Assembly: GCA_035577985.1 (NCBI GenBank) | Contig: DATJZY010000061.1 | Location: 1 to 64,000, forward strand | Source: Candidatus Eisenbacteria bacterium | GTDB lineage: Bacteria; Desulfobacterota; Binatia; DP-6 | Length of the DNA: 64,000 bases | Direction: 5' to 3' | Part shown: positions 2,901-33,295 of the stretch, one piece after another | Position numbering within the stretch: position 1 is the stretch's first letter | How the letters are laid out: the number at the start of each line of letters is the position of its first letter | Translations under genes and position numbers: made by a program | Notes under the pieces: model-generated | Told to the model about the DNA's origin: nothing | What the model saw: only the letters and a program-made list of their open reading frames with translations | Databases searched by the model: none

Positions 2901-3968
2901 ATGGCAAAGCCCGCGATCGTGGCCGCCCTCCTGGTGATCGGCCTCGCGATCCCGGCAGCGGCGGCCAATCCGTGCAAGGTCGCGTGCAAAAGCACCAAGA
3001 AGACCTGCATCGCGGCCGCGAACGGGGCGTTCGCGACCGCCAGGACGACCTGCGCGGCCCTCCCGACACCGCCCGAGCGCAGCACCTGCATGAAGGCGGC
3101 TCGCACCGACAGGGCGGGGGCGAAGAAGTCGTGCAAGCAGGCGTTCAAGGCGTGCGCCGCCGCATGTGGCAGCGGGGGCGGCGGCGGGGGGTCGGGTAAC
3201 TGCAACGCGTCCGGCGCGAGCGACTGGCTCGCAGCCGTGAACCTCTACCGCAGCAACGCCGGGCTGCCGGCGGTCACCGAAGACCCGGCCCTCTCCGACG
3301 GCGACATGAAGCATGCGCAGTACACCGTGCGGAACGACGTGCTCGCCCACACCGAGGACCCGTCCAAACCGGCCTACACGCCCGAGGGCGCGACCGCGGC
3401 GAGCAAGAGCAACGTCGCCGCGTCGTCGACGGGCACGCTGTCCGAAACGGGACCGATCGACCTGTGGATGCGCGGCCCGTACCACGCCATCGGCATTCTC
3501 GATCCGCGCCTCGCGACGGTCGGCTTCGGTATCGCGCACGATTCCTCAGGCAACATCCAGAGCGCGGCTGCGCTCGACGTGCTCTCGGGACGCACCGGCC
3601 CCGACTCGACACCGTATCCGATCGTTTTCCCGGGCGACGGCTCGCAAGTGACGCTCGATCGCTACGACGGCACCGAGCTGCCGGACCCGCTGGCCGGCTG
3701 CGCCGGCTACAGCGCGCCGACGGGGCTTCCCCTCATCGTCCAGCTCCCCCACGGCGTGACGCCGACCGTGACGGCGTCGTCGTTCATGCGCGACGGCGCC
3801 GCCGTCGACCACTGCATCCTCCTCCCCAGCCCGGGCGACTCCCTCGACAATCGAAACGCGGTCGTCCTGATTCCGAAGGACGTCCTGCGGAAGGGCTCGG
3901 CCTACCAGGCGTCGCTCACGGCCGGCGGGCAGACGATCACCTGGTCGTTCACGCTCGCCTGCAAGTAG
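2901..3968 (+). CDS. Secreted CAP/SCP-domain protein with Cys-hairpin module
   Basis: 355 residues. The signal peptide covers residues 1-22. Residues 25-89 are a Lys/Ala-rich cysteine module with the mirror spacing C25-x3-C29-x6-C36 and C78-x6-C85-x3-C89, plus C51 and C63 between. A poly-Gly linker (about 90-99) leads to a bacterial CAP (SCP/PR1-like) domain at about 105-240: WLAAVNLYRSNAGLP, the histidine in DMKHAQY, and RGPYHAIGILDP. The C-terminal 110 residues resemble a beta-sandwich commonly found after CAP domains. CAP proteins bind lipids or act on cell surfaces; the role here is unknown. GGAG lies close upstream of the chosen ATG. An in-frame GTG at 2889 is an alternative start. Confidence 0.85.
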   Translation: MAKPAIVAALLVIGLAIPAAAANPCKVACKSTKKTCIAAANGAFATARTTCAALPTPPERSTCMKAARTDRAGAKKSCKQAFKACAAACGSGGGGGGSGNCNASGASDWLAAVNLYRSNAGLPAVTEDPALSDGDMKHAQYTVRNDVLAHTEDPSKPAYTPEGATAASKSNVAASSTGTLSETGPIDLWMRGPYHAIGILDPRLATVGFGIAHDSSGNIQSAAALDVLSGRTGPDSTPYPIVFPGDGSQVTLDRYDGTELPDPLAGCAGYSAPTGLPLIVQLPHGVTPTVTASSFMRDGAAVDHCILLPSPGDSLDNRNAVVLIPKDVLRKGSAYQASLTAGGQTITWSFTLACK

Positions 3969-9827: not shown

Positions 9828-10322
9828 ATGCCAACGCGTCCCCGAACTGCGAAGCGGAAGCGGTCGGCGCCGAAAGTCTCCCGCCACCCGAGAAAGCTGC
9901 CGAAGAGCAAGGCGGAGGCGGCTGCGATCGAGCGCCTGCGCGCGATCTGCCTCGCGCTGCCGGAGGCGACCGAGAAGATCGCATGGGGCGAGGCGACGTG
10001 GCGCGCGGGCAAGATCTTCGCGCAGATGGATACGCACCACCACGGCGCCGATCACGTCGCGGTGTGGCTGCCGGCGCGCCCCGGTGTGCAGGAGGGCCTC
10101 GTCGAGGAGGACCCGGAGCAGTTCTTCCGGCCGCCCTACGTGGGGCATCTCGGCTGGATCGGTATTCGCATCGATCGCAAGCCGGACTGGCGCATCATCG
10201 CGGGGCTGGTCGCCGACGCGTATCGCGAGGTGGCACCACCGCGCCTGGTTGCGCTGCTCGATGCGGATCGAAGCAAGCAGCCGCGTGGCTGGCGCGCCGG
10301 GTGGCTCGACGGCCGATCGTGA
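9828..10322 (+). CDS. MmcQ/YjbR-like protein
   Basis: 164 residues. After a basic N-terminal tail (residues 1-30) the sequence matches the MmcQ/YjbR fold: LRAICLALPEATEKIAWGEATWRAGKIFAQM, HVAVWLPARPGVQEGL and a C-terminal segment ending GHLGWIGIRIDRKPDWRIIAGLVADAYREVAP. These are small CyaY-like alpha/beta proteins proposed to bind DNA, with little direct evidence. The start ATG at 9828 is chosen because the family begins shortly after; in-frame GTG codons just upstream are possible. The gene end overlaps the next gene's possible GTG start (GTGA), implying coupling. Confidence 0.8.
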   Translation: MPTRPRTAKRKRSAPKVSRHPRKLPKSKAEAAAIERLRAICLALPEATEKIAWGEATWRAGKIFAQMDTHHHGADHVAVWLPARPGVQEGLVEEDPEQFFRPPYVGHLGWIGIRIDRKPDWRIIAGLVADAYREVAPPRLVALLDADRSKQPRGWRAGWLDGRS

Positions 10323-16608: not shown

Positions 16609-17715
16609 ATGGCCCGCAAGCGCAGCACCGCCGCCGCCGACGCACGCACCGTCCTGGTCGTCGACGACCAGCCCGATACGCTCGATTCGGTCCGCCTGCT
16701 CCTCGAGCGTGAAGGCCACCGCGTTCTCACCGCCGCGAGCGGGCCCGAGTCGCTCGAGCTCCTCGGCGTCGAGCGCGTCCACGTGGCGCTCGTCGACTAC
16801 CTGATGCCCCGCATGACGGGCGAGGAGCTGGTCGGCCACATCCGCGGGCTCGACCCGAGCATCCAGGTGATCCTGCAGACGGGCTACGCCGGCGAGAAGC
16901 CGCCGCGCGAGATGATGCGCCGGCTCGACATCCAGGGGTATCACGACAAGGCCGAGGGCCCCGAAAAGCTGCTCCTCTGGGTCGACGTCGCGATGAAGGC
17001 GCACGCGCAGCTGGAGAACGTGACGCGCGTCGAGCGCCTCAAGTCGGATCTTCTCACCAACGTCTCGCACGAGCTGCGCACCCCGCTCAACATCATGCTC
17101 GGCTACAGCGAGATGCTGATCGACGGAGCGTGCGGGCCGCAGACGCCGCAGTCGATCGAAGTGCTCGAGCGCATGCGCCGCAGCGCCGAGGCGCTGCGCG
17201 ACATCGTGAACGACTGCCTCGACATGTCGCGGCTCGCGGCGGGCGAGATCGCCGTCCAGCTCGGGCGCGTGAGCCTGGAGAGCCTGCGCGAGGACGTCGA
17301 GCGCGCGGCGACCGGCCTTCTGCAAGATCGTCCAGTGTCGCTGCGCTGGGAGCTCGCCGGCGTGCCGGCGGTCGTGGCCGAGCGGTCGAAGCTCCGCATC
17401 GTCCTCTTCAACCTGCTCGTCACTGCGGCCAAGGCCACGTGCAACGAGGTCGCGATCCTGGCCGAGGAGTGCGGCGATCGCGTGCTCGTAGCGGTACAGG
17501 ACGACGGTCCCGGCGCGGGCGAGCGGCCGCAGGACACCACCTTCGAGCCCTTCGTCCACGAGCCGACGACGGGCAAGGGTGGCTCGGGGCTCGGTCTCTC
17601 GATTGCGCGCGAGCTGGCGCTGCTCATGGGCGGCGACATCGAGGTCGCGAGCGCCCCGGGCGCCGGCCGCGTGTTCACCCTCAGCCTACAACGCGCGGCG
17701 CTCGCCGAGTCATGA
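16609..17715 (+). CDS. Receiver-histidine kinase hybrid, N-box altered
   Basis: 368 residues, soluble. The receiver domain (about 14-128) is complete: D19/D20, phospho-acceptor D63 in ALVDYLMP, T91 and K114. HisKA at about 140-205 has the H-box SHELRTPLN with H154. The ATPase domain has a good G1 (DDGPGAG, 298-304), F-box FEPF and G2 (GSGLGLSI, 325-332). Its N-box reads FNLLVTAAKAT, with Thr272 where the Mg-coordinating Asn normally stands. It has no DNA-binding output, so it is a signalling intermediate, likely partnered with the membrane kinase at 19205. The stop overlaps the lnt start (ATGA). Confidence 0.9.
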   Translation: MARKRSTAAADARTVLVVDDQPDTLDSVRLLLEREGHRVLTAASGPESLELLGVERVHVALVDYLMPRMTGEELVGHIRGLDPSIQVILQTGYAGEKPPREMMRRLDIQGYHDKAEGPEKLLLWVDVAMKAHAQLENVTRVERLKSDLLTNVSHELRTPLNIMLGYSEMLIDGACGPQTPQSIEVLERMRRSAEALRDIVNDCLDMSRLAAGEIAVQLGRVSLESLREDVERAATGLLQDRPVSLRWELAGVPAVVAERSKLRIVLFNLLVTAAKATCNEVAILAEECGDRVLVAVQDDGPGAGERPQDTTFEPFVHEPTTGKGGSGLGLSIARELALLMGGDIEVASAPGAGRVFTLSLQRAALAES

Positions 17716-28608: not shown

Positions 28609-28836
28609 CTAGGCACTCCGATCCCGGGCCAACCGGCTGGGCTGAGGCCGCGATCCGCTTGACCCGCTCGGCGCGTCGTCGGGGCGGCAGACGGCGCCGC
28701 GAAGCTTCTTCGTGTCGGCCAGGACTGAGTCTCCGGCCGCGACCGGGGTCGCGCGCAGGTTCCCGTCGAGCTTCCTTCGCGCCGCGAGGCCGGCGAGGTC
28801 GTGGGCGTACGCGATCAGCGCCCGGGTGCTCTGCAC
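28609..28836 (-). CDS. Possible small protein, weak candidate
   Basis: A 75-codon frame from GTG 28836. The first 50 residues (LIAYAHDLAGLAARRKLDGN, ADTKKLRGAVCRPDD) have ordinary protein composition, while the last 20 are Ser/Pro/Arg-rich as in GC-shadow frames. There is no clear ribosome site and no family match that I can name. The same frame stays open upstream through the non-coding region, so it may be chance. Listed only because the gap is otherwise empty. Confidence 0.2.
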   Translation of the reverse strand: MQSTRALIAYAHDLAGLAARRKLDGNLRATPVAAGDSVLADTKKLRGAVCRPDDAPSGSSGSRPQPSRLARDRSA

Positions 28837-28969
28837 AAGACGTCGGCGTGTCTTGCGCAGATCGGAGGTTGCACGGAACGCGCCCGCCCCGTCGTGGTCG
28901 CTCAGCTCGACGGCGAGCGTTCGCTCATTTGGGCGAGCGTCGCGACGGCTTCTCCTGGCGAGAGCGGCC

Positions 28970-30895
28970 TCAACGGAGGTCGTAGTCGCCCGGCCCCGGC
29001 GTGCGGGTCCAGGCCCAGTAGTCGACGAGCCGCCAGGGCGAGGTCGTCAGCACGCGGCCACGGGCGTTCTTGTACCAGCTCCCGGTGCCTGCGTGGGACC
29101 ACACCATCGTGTCGTGGCGTGCGTCGAAACGCGCGGCGTACGCGTCGTGGACGTCGCGCCGGCACTCCATGGCCGAGAACCCTCCGCGCAGCAGCGTCGC
29201 CAGGCAGCCGATCACGTAACGGACCTGGCACTCGGAGTGGAAGATGATGCTGCCGGCGTGCGCGAGATTGGTTCCGGGTCCGTACAGACAGAAGAGATTC
29301 GGGAAGTCCGGGACGGTGATGCCGAGGTAGGCGCGCGGCTCGTCGCCCCATACCTCGCGCAGCGTGGCACCGCTGCGCCCGGCGATCTCCATCGGCCACA
29401 GGAATCGGTTCGCGTGGAAGCCGGTCGCGTAGATGATCGCGTCGACGACGTGCTCCGCGCCGTCCGCGCAGCGCACGCCGCGGGACGTGATCTCCGCGAT
29501 CGGCTCTACGACGAGGTCGACGTTGTCGCGCTTCAGCGTCGCGAGCCAGGTTCCGTCGTCCTGCAGCATGCGCTTCACGAACGGCGGGTAGCGCGGCACG
29601 ACCTTGGCGAGCAGCTCCGGGTCGTCGCCGATCTGCTCGGCCATGTACTGCGTGAAGAACTCGCGCATGGCGTCGTTCATGGCGTTGACCGACCGCTCGG
29701 GGTGCGGCCACTCGGGGTCGACGACGAGCGACGGCATCAAACCGTCCGAGCCGGGCCAGAAGAGCAGGAAGCGATACCAGCGCGCATAGTACGGCACGTG
29801 CCGCAGGAGCCACTTCTTCGCATCGCCGATCTTCGCGTGGTAGCGCGGGTTCGGCACCATCCACGGCGGCGAGCGCTGGAAGACGATGAGGCGGCGCGCC
29901 GTCTTGGCGATCTCGGGCGCGAGCTGGAAGGCGCTCGCGCCCGTGCCGATCACCGCGACGCGCTTGCCGGCGAGGTCGTGCTGGTGCTGCCACTCGGCCG
30001 AATGGAACGCGGGACCGGCGAACGACTCGCGTCCGGGAATGTCGGGGAGGCGAGGGCGGTTGAGGGCCCCGACGGCGCTGACGATCGCGTTGGCGAGGAG
30101 CGTCTCCTCCCGGCCCCGGGATCGGATCCGCAGCTCCCACCGGGCCTCGGCGTCGTTCCAGCGCGCCGCGAGGACCTCGGTGCCGAAGCGGATGCGCGCC
30201 CGCACACCGTAGCGATCGGCGCACCGCTCGAAGTAGTCGCGCAGCTCGTTTCGCTGCGAGAAGAACTCCGGCCAGTCGTGGTTCGGCTCGAACGAGTAGC
30301 AATAGAAGTGGTTGGCGACGTCGACGCGGCACCCCGGATAGCTGTTCTCGAGCCAGGTGCCGCCGACTCCCTCGTTCTTCTCCAGCACGACGTATGGGAT
30401 CCGGGCCTGCTCGAGCCGGATCGCGGCCAGCAGGCCCGACATGCCGGCGCCGATGACGACGACGCGCAAGCGCTCACGGCGCTCCGCCGGCACACCGTCC
30501 CAAGCGACGCCGCGGGCGTCGGCGCCATCGAGCGCCATCTCCTCCAGGAACATCGGGACGTACTCGTCGGGAACCTCTTCGCCGACCATGAAGCTCATCA
30601 TGCTGCGAATGGTCGCCGGTGACGGAGGTGGCGGCAGCGTGCCGCCGCGATCGCGATGGGCGCGCAGCGCCGCGAGCGCCATCGACCGCACGGCGGCCCG
30701 GTCGGCGTCGGACAGCCCCCCGTCGACGTCGCCCGGCATCGTGCGTTGCGGCCGGATCGGTCCGTCCAGGATCGACGCGTCGCCGGTCAGGTGGACGATC
30801 GACATGAGCAGCGTCGGTACGCTCGCGTGCTCGAGCGCGGCGGCGAGGAACGCGTCGTCCTCGGTGATGGGGGCATCGGCGAGCGGTCGATTCAT
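28970..30895 (-). CDS. Baeyer-Villiger-type flavin monooxygenase (HapE-like)
   Basis: 641 residues. The FAD-binding motif GAGMSG (149-154) is followed by GVGGTWLENSYPGCRVDV. The type I Baeyer-Villiger fingerprint F-x-G-x3-H-x3-W is present as FAGPAFHSAEW (292-302), and the NADPH motif GTGASA is at 317-322. The long N-terminal extension (1-140) is typical of 4-hydroxyacetophenone monooxygenase and related enzymes. These convert ketones to esters using NADPH and O2. In this window it would fit ketone steps in breakdown of aromatic, alicyclic or steroid-like compounds, but no esterase is adjacent, so the substrate is open. Confidence 0.9.
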   Translation of the reverse strand: MNRPLADAPITEDDAFLAAALEHASVPTLLMSIVHLTGDASILDGPIRPQRTMPGDVDGGLSDADRAAVRSMALAALRAHRDRGGTLPPPPSPATIRSMMSFMVGEEVPDEYVPMFLEEMALDGADARGVAWDGVPAERRERLRVVVIGAGMSGLLAAIRLEQARIPYVVLEKNEGVGGTWLENSYPGCRVDVANHFYCYSFEPNHDWPEFFSQRNELRDYFERCADRYGVRARIRFGTEVLAARWNDAEARWELRIRSRGREETLLANAIVSAVGALNRPRLPDIPGRESFAGPAFHSAEWQHQHDLAGKRVAVIGTGASAFQLAPEIAKTARRLIVFQRSPPWMVPNPRYHAKIGDAKKWLLRHVPYYARWYRFLLFWPGSDGLMPSLVVDPEWPHPERSVNAMNDAMREFFTQYMAEQIGDDPELLAKVVPRYPPFVKRMLQDDGTWLATLKRDNVDLVVEPIAEITSRGVRCADGAEHVVDAIIYATGFHANRFLWPMEIAGRSGATLREVWGDEPRAYLGITVPDFPNLFCLYGPGTNLAHAGSIIFHSECQVRYVIGCLATLLRGGFSAMECRRDVHDAYAARFDARHDTMVWSHAGTGSWYKNARGRVLTTSPWRLVDYWAWTRTPGPGDYDLR

Positions 30896-31061
30896 CCCAG
30901 GCGCGCCAGGGGCCTACCAAATCCGGCGGGAGAGAGGGAACGGGTGCCGCCCCGCAAGGGGTGTGCGCGTGACGGACCGACGCTTTTGCGACGGTCGGCC
31001 CTGCTTTCGCAAGCGTCGGAGCACACTTTTGATCGGCAAGTCCCTTGCAAGGCACGCCGCC

Positions 31062-33242
31062 ATGCCTCGCAGCGGCCGTGCCGCCCGCATCGCGACCCTC
31101 GCGCTCGCCCTGGGGCTCTGGCTCCCGGGCGTGGTGTCCGCCGCGTCGACGTGTCTGCACGACTGCCGGGCCGATGCGAAGACCTGCCGGGCGGAGGAGC
31201 TGGGCGACGTGCGCGCGTGCGGGAAGCGCGCCCGCGAATGCCGGAAGGCCTGCCGCGTCCGCTTGAAGCGCGGCTTCGCGAACGCGACCGCCTCGGTGTG
31301 CGGCAACGGGATCGTCGAGGCCGGCGAGACGTGCGACGGCGGCGTCTGCTGCAGCTCGACCTGCCAGCTGATGCCGGTGGGGACGGTCTGCGGCGACAAG
31401 ACCGGCAACGACTGCACGCTGCCCGACACCTGCAACGCGACGGGCGTTTGCGCGCCGAACGACATGGCTGCGGGCACGATCGCGCCGACCTTCTGCGCCG
31501 ACAACAACCCGTGCACCGCCGACCAGTGCAACGGAACCGGCGGGTGCCAGCATCCGCTCCTGCCGTCCGGAACGCTCTGCGGCAGCATCGTCGGCAACGA
31601 CTGCACGTTGCCCGACCGCTGCAACGCGACCGGCCAGTGCCTCACCAACGACATGGTCGCCGGCACGGTCGCTCCGACGCTCTGCAACGACGGCAACCCC
31701 TGCACGCGCGACCTCTGCAACGGCACCGGCGGATGCCAGAACCCGTTCTCGGCGCCCGGCACGCTGTGCGGCGACATGCGCTCGGACGACTGCAACGGGC
31801 CCGACCAATGCAGCGGCACGGGGACCTGCCTCGCCAACAACACCCCGCAGGGAACGATCGCGCCGACCCTGTGCGGGGACGCCAACCCCTGCACGGCCGA
31901 CCAGTGCAACGGCGCCGGCGGCTGCCAGCATCCGCTGCAGCCCGTCGGCTTCTTCTGCGGCAGCACGGTCGGCAACGACTGCACGCTGCCCGACACCTGC
32001 AACAGCACGGGCGCGTGCCTGGCGAACAACATGCCGGCGGGCATGATCGCGCCGACGCTGTGCTACGACGGCAACGGTTGCACGCGCGACGTGTGCGACG
32101 GCAGCGGCGGCTGCATGCATCCGCCGGAGCCCACGACCATGCGGTGCGACGACGGCGACGCCTGCGGGCCCGACACCTGCAACGGCGCGGGCGGCTGCTC
32201 CGAGACCGTCACCACGTGCGGCGACGGCATCGCGAACTGCGGCGAGCAGTGCGATCGCAACGACCACGGGACGTGCGGTGCCACCTCCGGCTGCACGGCG
32301 AGCTGCACCTGCTGCCCGAATCTCACCCTGACGATGGTCTCGATGAGCGGCTCGTGCGGCCGCATCAACAACGACCAGAGCGGTACCGGTCGTGACCTGC
32401 GTCCCTTCGCGCTCACCGATGCGTTCCTGCACTGCAACACGATGTACCTGGGCGGCGGATCGTCGCGCGCCGATCTGATCCCGCTGCCGGCCGGCGTGTC
32501 GTCCGTCTTCCACGTGACGAGCTGCGGCACGCAGACCGCCATGCCACTCGGTGCGTCGACGGCGGCCGAGACCGGCGACGTGGGTCGCTGTACCGCGCCC
32601 GGCTGCAGCTTCGGCGCGCCGGTGCCGATGCAGAACACGCTGCGCTCGAACCTGAACGGCTGCTACGTGACGACGATCGCACCGTCGCCGGCGGTGTCCG
32701 GCACCCTCAACGCGACCACCGGTGCGCTCGACGTGACCCTGCCGCTTCGCGTCGCCGTGTACCTGAACGGCGACCTCGACTCCGGCACCCCCGGCGTCCA
32801 GGAATGCCCGATCTGCTCGAGCGGCGTGTGCCGAGGCGGCCCCAACAACGGCCACTCGTGCACGGTCGACAGCTCGACCGGGACGTCGGTCGACTGCCCG
32901 CCGCCCGGAACGCCGGCGGCCACGCTCAGCGTGACGCTCACGCACCAGACGACGAGCACCTCCACGGTGGCCGACTCGCGCGGCGCGTTCTGCCTGCCGT
33001 CGCCGGCCCAGGGTCTGCTGGGGCAAGCGACGCGCGGCGCCTTCCGCGGCCGCACGGGGACCGCCCGCTACATCGAGGTCCGTGGCTCGACCTTCGGCGA
33101 TCTGCGCGACGGCCAGCCGCACACTGGCATCGCCGGCGGGACCGCCTGCGTGTCCGGAACGGGCAACTCGACGGTGGACTCGGGCATGAACCTGCCCGGG
33201 CCCGCGGGGCTGTCGATGGGCCTGCAGGCGCAGCTCCGGTGA
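31062..33242 (+). CDS. Large secreted Cys-rich repeat protein
   Basis: 726 residues. Signal peptide 1-28. Next comes the mirror cysteine module C31-x3-C35-x6-C42, ten residues, C53-x6-C60-x3-C64, shared with the CAP protein at 2901. A CGNGIVEAGETCD unit (about 80-92) is DUF4215-like. Then four tandem 63-residue cysteine repeats (about 117-368), each with pieces like NDCTLPDTCNATG and APTLC.D.NPCT.D.CNG.GGC, and a degenerate fifth. A second CGDG unit follows, and the C-terminal 300 residues are beta-rich with few cysteines. It is probably a surface or extracellular protein stabilised by many disulfides; the function is unknown. AAGG is 9 bases before the ATG. Confidence 0.83.
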   Translation: MPRSGRAARIATLALALGLWLPGVVSAASTCLHDCRADAKTCRAEELGDVRACGKRARECRKACRVRLKRGFANATASVCGNGIVEAGETCDGGVCCSSTCQLMPVGTVCGDKTGNDCTLPDTCNATGVCAPNDMAAGTIAPTFCADNNPCTADQCNGTGGCQHPLLPSGTLCGSIVGNDCTLPDRCNATGQCLTNDMVAGTVAPTLCNDGNPCTRDLCNGTGGCQNPFSAPGTLCGDMRSDDCNGPDQCSGTGTCLANNTPQGTIAPTLCGDANPCTADQCNGAGGCQHPLQPVGFFCGSTVGNDCTLPDTCNSTGACLANNMPAGMIAPTLCYDGNGCTRDVCDGSGGCMHPPEPTTMRCDDGDACGPDTCNGAGGCSETVTTCGDGIANCGEQCDRNDHGTCGATSGCTASCTCCPNLTLTMVSMSGSCGRINNDQSGTGRDLRPFALTDAFLHCNTMYLGGGSSRADLIPLPAGVSSVFHVTSCGTQTAMPLGASTAAETGDVGRCTAPGCSFGAPVPMQNTLRSNLNGCYVTTIAPSPAVSGTLNATTGALDVTLPLRVAVYLNGDLDSGTPGVQECPICSSGVCRGGPNNGHSCTVDSSTGTSVDCPPPGTPAATLSVTLTHQTTSTSTVADSRGAFCLPSPAQGLLGQATRGAFRGRTGTARYIEVRGSTFGDLRDGQPHTGIAGGTACVSGTGNSTVDSGMNLPGPAGLSMGLQAQLR
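31411..32166 (+). repeat. Four exact-period 189-bp tandem coding repeats
   Basis: The phase marker ACTGCAC/ACTGCAA recurs at 31411, 31600, 31789 and 31978, exactly 189 bp apart, so each unit encodes 63 residues. A fifth copy near 32160 is shortened. Units differ at many positions but keep cysteines and spacing, as in an old duplication under selection for fold. Confidence 0.85.
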
Positions 33243-33295
33243 CGTCGCTCGCCGCGTTGAGCTGAACGCCGCGGGCCGGCACACTCCGCGTCGTC

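Follow-up and report, generated by a model that had tools for sequence, protein, structure and literature searches.

The N-terminal modules of two exported proteins encoded in the window (the whole stretch of 64,000 nucleotides analysed here) are most probably exported antiparallel alpha-hairpins, each stapled by nested disulfides arranged as a ladder, a reading to which we assign a probability of roughly 0.7. One module precedes a CAP domain and founds an unnamed family that is largely limited to one bacterial class; for this family the nested-disulfide hairpin is well supported. The other opens the protein encoded from position 31062 and is, plausibly, a hairpin of the same kind.

Two cysteine modules of the window

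The two genes and their parts were delimited as follows.

31062..33242, + strand: gene for an exported protein with an N-terminal six-cysteine module, a disintegrin-like/DUF4215-like cysteine stretch and five Dicty_CTDC repeats (ORF, Pfam)
31062..31142, + strand: signal peptide of this protein, MPRSGRAARIATLALALGLWLPGVVSA, without a lipobox (own reading of the sequence; cleavage site approximate)
31152..31253, + strand: three-rung mirror module 3-6-10-6-3 with the proposed pairs C31-C64, C35-C60 and C42-C53 (spacing, single-sequence AlphaFold2 model)
2901..3968, + strand: gene for an exported CAP protein with an N-terminal eight-cysteine module (ORF; PF00188, E 7.5e-10)
2901..2963, + strand: signal peptide of the CAP protein, MAKPAIVAALLVIGLAIPAAA (sequence read directly; cleavage site approximate)
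2973..3167, + strand: four-rung mirror module 3-6-14-(11)-14-6-3 with the proposed pairs C25-C89, C29-C85, C36-C78 and C51-C63 (spacing, profile, AlphaFold2)
3168..3203, + strand: Gly-rich linker GSGGGGGGSGNC from the hairpin to the CAP domain (sequence read directly)
3228..3554, + strand: CAP domain (PF00188 match)

The protein encoded at 31062-33242 (+) begins with MPRSGRAARIATLALALGLWLPGVVSAAST-CLHDCRADAKTCRAEELGDVRACGKRARECRKAC. Its first cysteines lie at residues 31, 35, 42, 53, 60 and 64 (window positions 31152-31253), and the spacing 3-6-10-6-3 given in the original prediction was confirmed at these residues. Further downstream, PF00526 (Dicty_CTDC) matched five stretches (E 1.9e-10, 40.8 bits against a cut-off of 27), and a match to PF00200 was below its cut-off (E 0.0065). 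The cysteines of the CAP protein, at residues 25, 29, 36, 51, 63, 78, 85 and 89, form a complete eight-cysteine palindrome, and its CAP domain scored 40.1 bits against PF00188 (cut-off 21.1). This module had been described as a three-rung version with the same arms around a plain longer centre. The arms (25/29/36 and 78/85/89) were borne out, but the centre holds the additional mirror pair C51/C63; the module has four rungs, and members of its family have three to six. Likewise, the description of the helices as Lys/Arg-rich is true of both window modules (net charges +7 and +11) but not of the family (mean +1.8, SD 5.2). Over either N-terminal module Pfam gave no match and NCBIfam nothing above cut-off, which agrees with the view that the module was undescribed. 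Two further window ORFs, 30474-33284 (-) and 28712-30622 (+), are very long and antisense to other long ORFs, as high-G+C DNA leads one to expect, and were judged by eye to be spurious.

The frequency of the spacing was determined in the genome of the window, using a sample of 1.94 Mb taken in stretches, with crude signal-peptide and gene calls. The pattern C-x3-C-x6-C-x(8,45)-C-x6-C-x3-C within the first 120 mature residues was found in two proteins with a called signal peptide, the matches of the window being its two proteins described above. Residue shuffling gave 0.01 on average and at most 1 in 200 runs, and the non-exported ORFs of the 1.94 Mb gave none. The predicted enrichment behind signal peptides was thus observed. 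CX3C was also the commonest first cysteine spacing in cysteine-rich exported N-termini of this genome (9 of 46, versus a shuffled mean of 2.66, the shuffled maximum in 200 runs being likewise 9), and about 15 further exported proteins open with related CX3C modules in which the second arm is different. A search at the DNA level (TGY-N9-TGY-N18-TGY) gave 530 matches in the genome, fewer than the reversed control, and was uninformative.

Other cysteine modules were also encountered behind signal peptides. A second class, CX3CX6C ... C(K/R)RxxLRxCRxxGxxxC, lies outside the mirror rule described below and precedes an FG-GAP protein, a repeat-rich protein and others (L129 (-) near 2291, L105 (-) near 17565, L046 near 16321 and L065 (-) near 10304). 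Three long exported cysteine-rich helical proteins of the same genome contain C-x10-C-x3-C (L121:10214-10720, L029:4507-4950 and L122:6507-7358); these probably consist of several related hairpins in tandem, barely detected by the profile.

AlphaFold2 predicted a helix-turn-helix fold for both modules of the window, in keeping with the structure that had been anticipated. In the CAP module, modelled with one relative in the alignment, two helices (4-32 and 37-70 of the fragment) were joined by one turn with a pLDDT of 88.5 (core about 96), and the single-sequence model of the 31062 module consisted of helices 2-20 and 25-53 joined by one turn (pLDDT 80.4). In the 31062 fragment, each of the proposed pairs (6-39, 10-35 and 17-28) has its midpoint at 22.5, which coincides with the centre of the predicted turn (21-24). 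The pairs of the CAP module share a midpoint at residue 37 of their fragment, whose predicted turn (33-36) has its centre two to three residues earlier; helix 2 would therefore overhang there. With Foldseek, neither model had a match at E<=0.001. VIA-align gave Z values of up to 8.2, which are inside the range of common helical arrangements; the nearest geometries, to be taken as leads only, were the anopheline anti-platelet protein, saposin A and vanabin2.

Cysteine positions and distribution of the module family

Single-sequence searches with the CAP module returned relatives at E 2.9e-19 to 5e-12 in genomes of the same taxonomic family and at 1.2e-7 in another family, a likeness that is significant beyond the cysteines; across the class the matches were weaker. 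These relatives have ten cysteines in the perfect palindrome 3-6-10-3-(loop)-3-10-6-3. A profile of twelve modules detected the module family in 35 of 148 genomes of the class, including all seven of the taxonomic family, and a wider profile gave the same 35; the CAP module itself scored E 6.4e-18 against a family profile in which its own sequence is included. Outside the class, one weak match was obtained in the phylum sample. The only case seen beyond the class is that of L174 and L187: one of them comes from another class of the same phylum, and both have the same three-rung {0,11,26} hairpin with a DUF3108-like domain. A search with three CAP modules returned one locus (L256, Deltaproteobacteria bacterium isolate DP_23), in which the module sequence is identical to that of L154. 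The family had no significant sequence match in Pfam, NCBIfam or PDB, PADLOC and a plasmid search gave nothing, and no paper on such a bacterial domain was found in the open-access literature searched.

The cysteines of the family, numbered inward from the outer end of each helix, occupy positions 0, 4, 11, 15, 22 and 26, so that every 11 residues provide two of them. The usual set is 0, 4, 11, 22, 26. The CAP type lacks 22, its mirrored set {0,4,11,26} behind the signal peptide following the position rule, and other groups lack 11, lack 26 or lack both 4 and 22; in some, 15 is added. Exact mirrors were found in 81 of 101 domains (mean 40 and maximum 52 in 5000 permutations) and in 56 of the 73 domains below 55% identity (24.9 when permuted, maximum 37), the related sequences in these counts and in the parity count below not being independent. 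Non-mirror (parallel) pairing fitted 8 domains only. The 20 imperfect mirrors among the 101 domains arise in some cases from repeat arrays aligned out of register. Over all domains, between-arm correlations were highest on the mirror diagonal (0.44-0.89), while within-arm correlations did not exceed 0.41. When state changes were placed on the branches of a tree, 22 of 54 (41%) were joint with, and in the same direction as, a change at the mirror partner, as compared with 14 of 270 (5%) for non-partners; the tree, built from short sequences without the cysteine columns, corrects partly for kinship.

Complete domains contained 6, 8, 9, 10 or 12 cysteines in 3, 9, 5, 51 and 3 cases, respectively. 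The cysteine number of the whole protein was even in 43 of 51 proteins; the corresponding nominal binomial p, 7e-7, is too favourable because the sequences are related. Gain and loss in mirror pairs, together with even cysteine numbers, are what nested disulfides would predict and would be hard to obtain from metal-thiolate clusters. An idealised antiparallel helix pair could accommodate all six rungs simultaneously with C-beta atoms 3.6-4.0 A apart; in the same geometry test, 40 random mirrored position sets all performed less well. Mirror coupling, cysteine parity, geometry and the AlphaFold2 models therefore all support the antiparallel helices with nested disulfides that had been suggested for the modules. 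Spacing, mirror coupling, even cysteine numbers, the position behind the signal peptide, domain shuffling and geometric feasibility can be read from the sequences themselves; the helix-turn-helix fold of the window modules is predicted.

Domain architecture, proposed role and alternatives

In all 63 family proteins the first module starts 16-46 residues past the assigned start, a figure that leans toward signal-peptide placement because starts were sought upstream of the module. The module occurs alone, in arrays or N-terminal to unrelated domains. Behind it were found a CAP domain (the window protein and L155), a GH10 xylanase (L178 by Pfam; L162 and L245 by evident likeness to L178), a RoxC/MbnH-like di-haem cytochrome (L181), Lcl_C (L235) and the DUF3108-like domain (L187; L174 by likeness). 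In other members, Thr-rich linkers or further hairpins follow, the longest arrays reaching 450-540 residues. These architectures bear out the proposed placement right behind signal peptides and before unrelated domains. A C-terminal tail, GS[APG][SG]xAF[LIV]..(LLD), is common to stand-alone ladder proteins (L156, L157, L161, L163, L167, L171, L172, L199, L201-L204, L208, L209 and L229) and to one Thr-linker protein of the genome of the window (L027, ORF from 11299); it has the appearance of a tag for sorting or processing.

In the proposed structure the first cysteine would be paired with the last, the second with the second-last, and so onward. Since two rungs per 11 residues correspond to three helical turns, the cysteines of each helix would form a single stripe on the side turned toward the partner. 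The disulfide ladder would stand in for a hydrophobic core (8 of 62 residues in the module are hydrophobic), and the cysteines would be oxidised after export, aided by a VKOR homologue present in the genome (E 1.1e-18). Because the module precedes unrelated domains, is poor in hydrophobic residues and occurs with different numbers of rungs, its role may be that of a rigid and protease-resistant spacer or recognition module, keeping the C-terminal domain (CAP, xylanase, cytochrome or repeat) extracellular. Stand-alone and array members would then be structural or binding proteins. This role is the least certain part of the whole reading and is rated somewhat less likely than not; the mobile cap or anchor originally suggested is likewise conjectural.

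The relation of the 31062 module to the family can be read in two ways. Its cysteine set, {0,4,11} on both helices behind a signal peptide, fits the mirror position rule, and a three-rung hairpin of the family's design, reached by descent or by convergence, is plausible. The exact spacing 3-6-10-6-3 occurs in this protein alone among all fetched sequence, its nearest parallel being the three-rung 3-6-14-6-3 form, which lies directly behind signal peptides in about ten family proteins of other genomes. This form would provide a ready intermediate for descent, and the arms CLHDCRADAKTC / CGKRARECRKAC of the 31062 module resemble the family arms CRASCKDAVKTC / CKEAREECRESC. Nevertheless, the chance that the module is an independent, convergent hairpin, and that the arm spacing it has in common with the CAP protein reflects helix geometry only, falls not far short of even. 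Positions 0/4/11 could, according to the geometry test, be used by any such ladder, and the genome holds further CX3C-type exported modules with other spacings. A single-sequence search with the 31062 module in its own genome and in 98 genomes yielded no orthologue, the weak matches being without the cysteine pattern. The module and the CAP-module family agree in cysteine pattern and predicted fold, so that homology is a candidate reading only; the score of 14.1 bits against the outer-arm family profile was equalled by 29 of 500 shuffles (6%) in which the cysteines were kept fixed.

Two other readings, one of the cysteines and one of the hairpins, are both considered unlikely. If the cysteines were reduced thiolates that hold Cu(I) or another metal, in the manner of copper storage proteins, the hairpins would dimerise to four-helix bundles with a thiolate core. 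A weak Foldseek match to a periplasmic cuprous-ion protein (7vw1) points in this direction, as does the occurrence of CX3C and CX6CX3C in a DUF326/Csp-like exported protein of the same genome (L028:4324-4771), but the strict gain and loss of mirror pairs and the even cysteine numbers fit disulfides and not multi-thiolate clusters. Met and His are, moreover, scarce (1.4 per domain), the proteins are exported in an organism with VKOR, and none of ten family proteins scanned matched DUF326 or a Csp family at E<=1. The hairpins might instead be secreted bioactive miniproteins with inhibitory, antimicrobial or channel-blocking activity, like plant alpha-hairpinins or scorpion kappa-KTx, delivered by the fused domains. 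Alpha-hairpinins likewise are helix-loop-helix proteins with nested CX3C disulfides (PMC7191063), stand-alone and tandem members exist, both window modules are cationic, and there was a weak profile contact with kappa-KTx 5.1 (E 0.5); the mean charge of the family is, however, near zero. Significant similarity to toxin families was absent, many modules are joined to large enzymes by short linkers, and no cleavage signature was seen. Neither of these two readings is thus given more than a small share of the probability, and the exported, disulfide-laddered hairpin is preferred.

Taken more broadly, it is fairly probable that the modules represent a class-wide, unnamed export domain, built on an 11-residue code of two cysteines with rungs gained or lost as mirror pairs, reused before enzymes, CAP and repeat proteins, and with a connectivity that may be read from the sequence. 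Curated libraries are without this domain, and the mirrored cysteine rule 0, 4, 11, 15, 22, 26 would yield the pairing without a structure. Such a two-helix scaffold with up to six disulfides and almost no hydrophobic core may be of interest to designers of stable miniproteins. It also gives a name to a common exported module in a class whose secreted proteins seem little known.

Comparison with known systems

Copper storage proteins (Csp; DUF326, PF03860) are exported helical proteins that carry CX3C and CX6CX3C along their helices and form four-helix bundles with Cu(I) thiolates. They differ from the module family in having no mirror-pair rule. The protein L028:4324-4771 (-) mentioned above, which is not a family member, is exported, contains C-x6-C-x3-C and other cysteine pairs and matches DUF326 weakly; it is a candidate Csp. 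The twin CX3C proteins (small Tim) and twin CX9C proteins (CHCH) are helical hairpins with two nested disulfides that are oxidised after import into the mitochondrial intermembrane space. In contrast to the modules they have two rungs and are mitochondrial, and no sequence match to them was obtained here.

Vanabins are V(IV)-binding, bow-shaped ascidian proteins with 18 conserved cysteines and nine disulfides (PMC9486056). Vanabin 1vfi resembles the modules as a small cysteine-rich helical protein with many disulfides, but the structural match was weak (Z 5.5, rmsd 5.4, inside the range of common helical arrangements), and complete domains of the module family contain at most 12 cysteines. The closest small full-length match of the CAP model was the anopheline anti-platelet protein (a chain of 4okv; 65 residues, rmsd 1.7-1.8, TM 0.83 by target). 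This is a mosquito protein with 9-11% identity and a Foldseek E of 9.4, values that give no evidence of kinship to the CAP module.

The plant alpha-hairpinins have the form XnC1X3C2XnC3X3C4Xn with the nested pairs C1-C4 and C2-C3 (PMC7191063). They are secreted antiparallel helix-loop-helix proteins with CX3C in each helix and nested pairs, a plan that the modules would share; for both window modules AlphaFold2 predicted two helices and one turn. They differ in having exactly four cysteines, two rungs and about 40 residues. The window modules contain six and eight cysteines, and the module family, with 6-12 cysteines and the 11-residue rule, is bacterial, mostly about 62-70 residues in length and fused to enzymes. 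The alpha-hairpinins and the small Tim proteins are relatives of the modules by design, not by descent. The domain is best regarded as a variant of the stapled alpha-hairpins.
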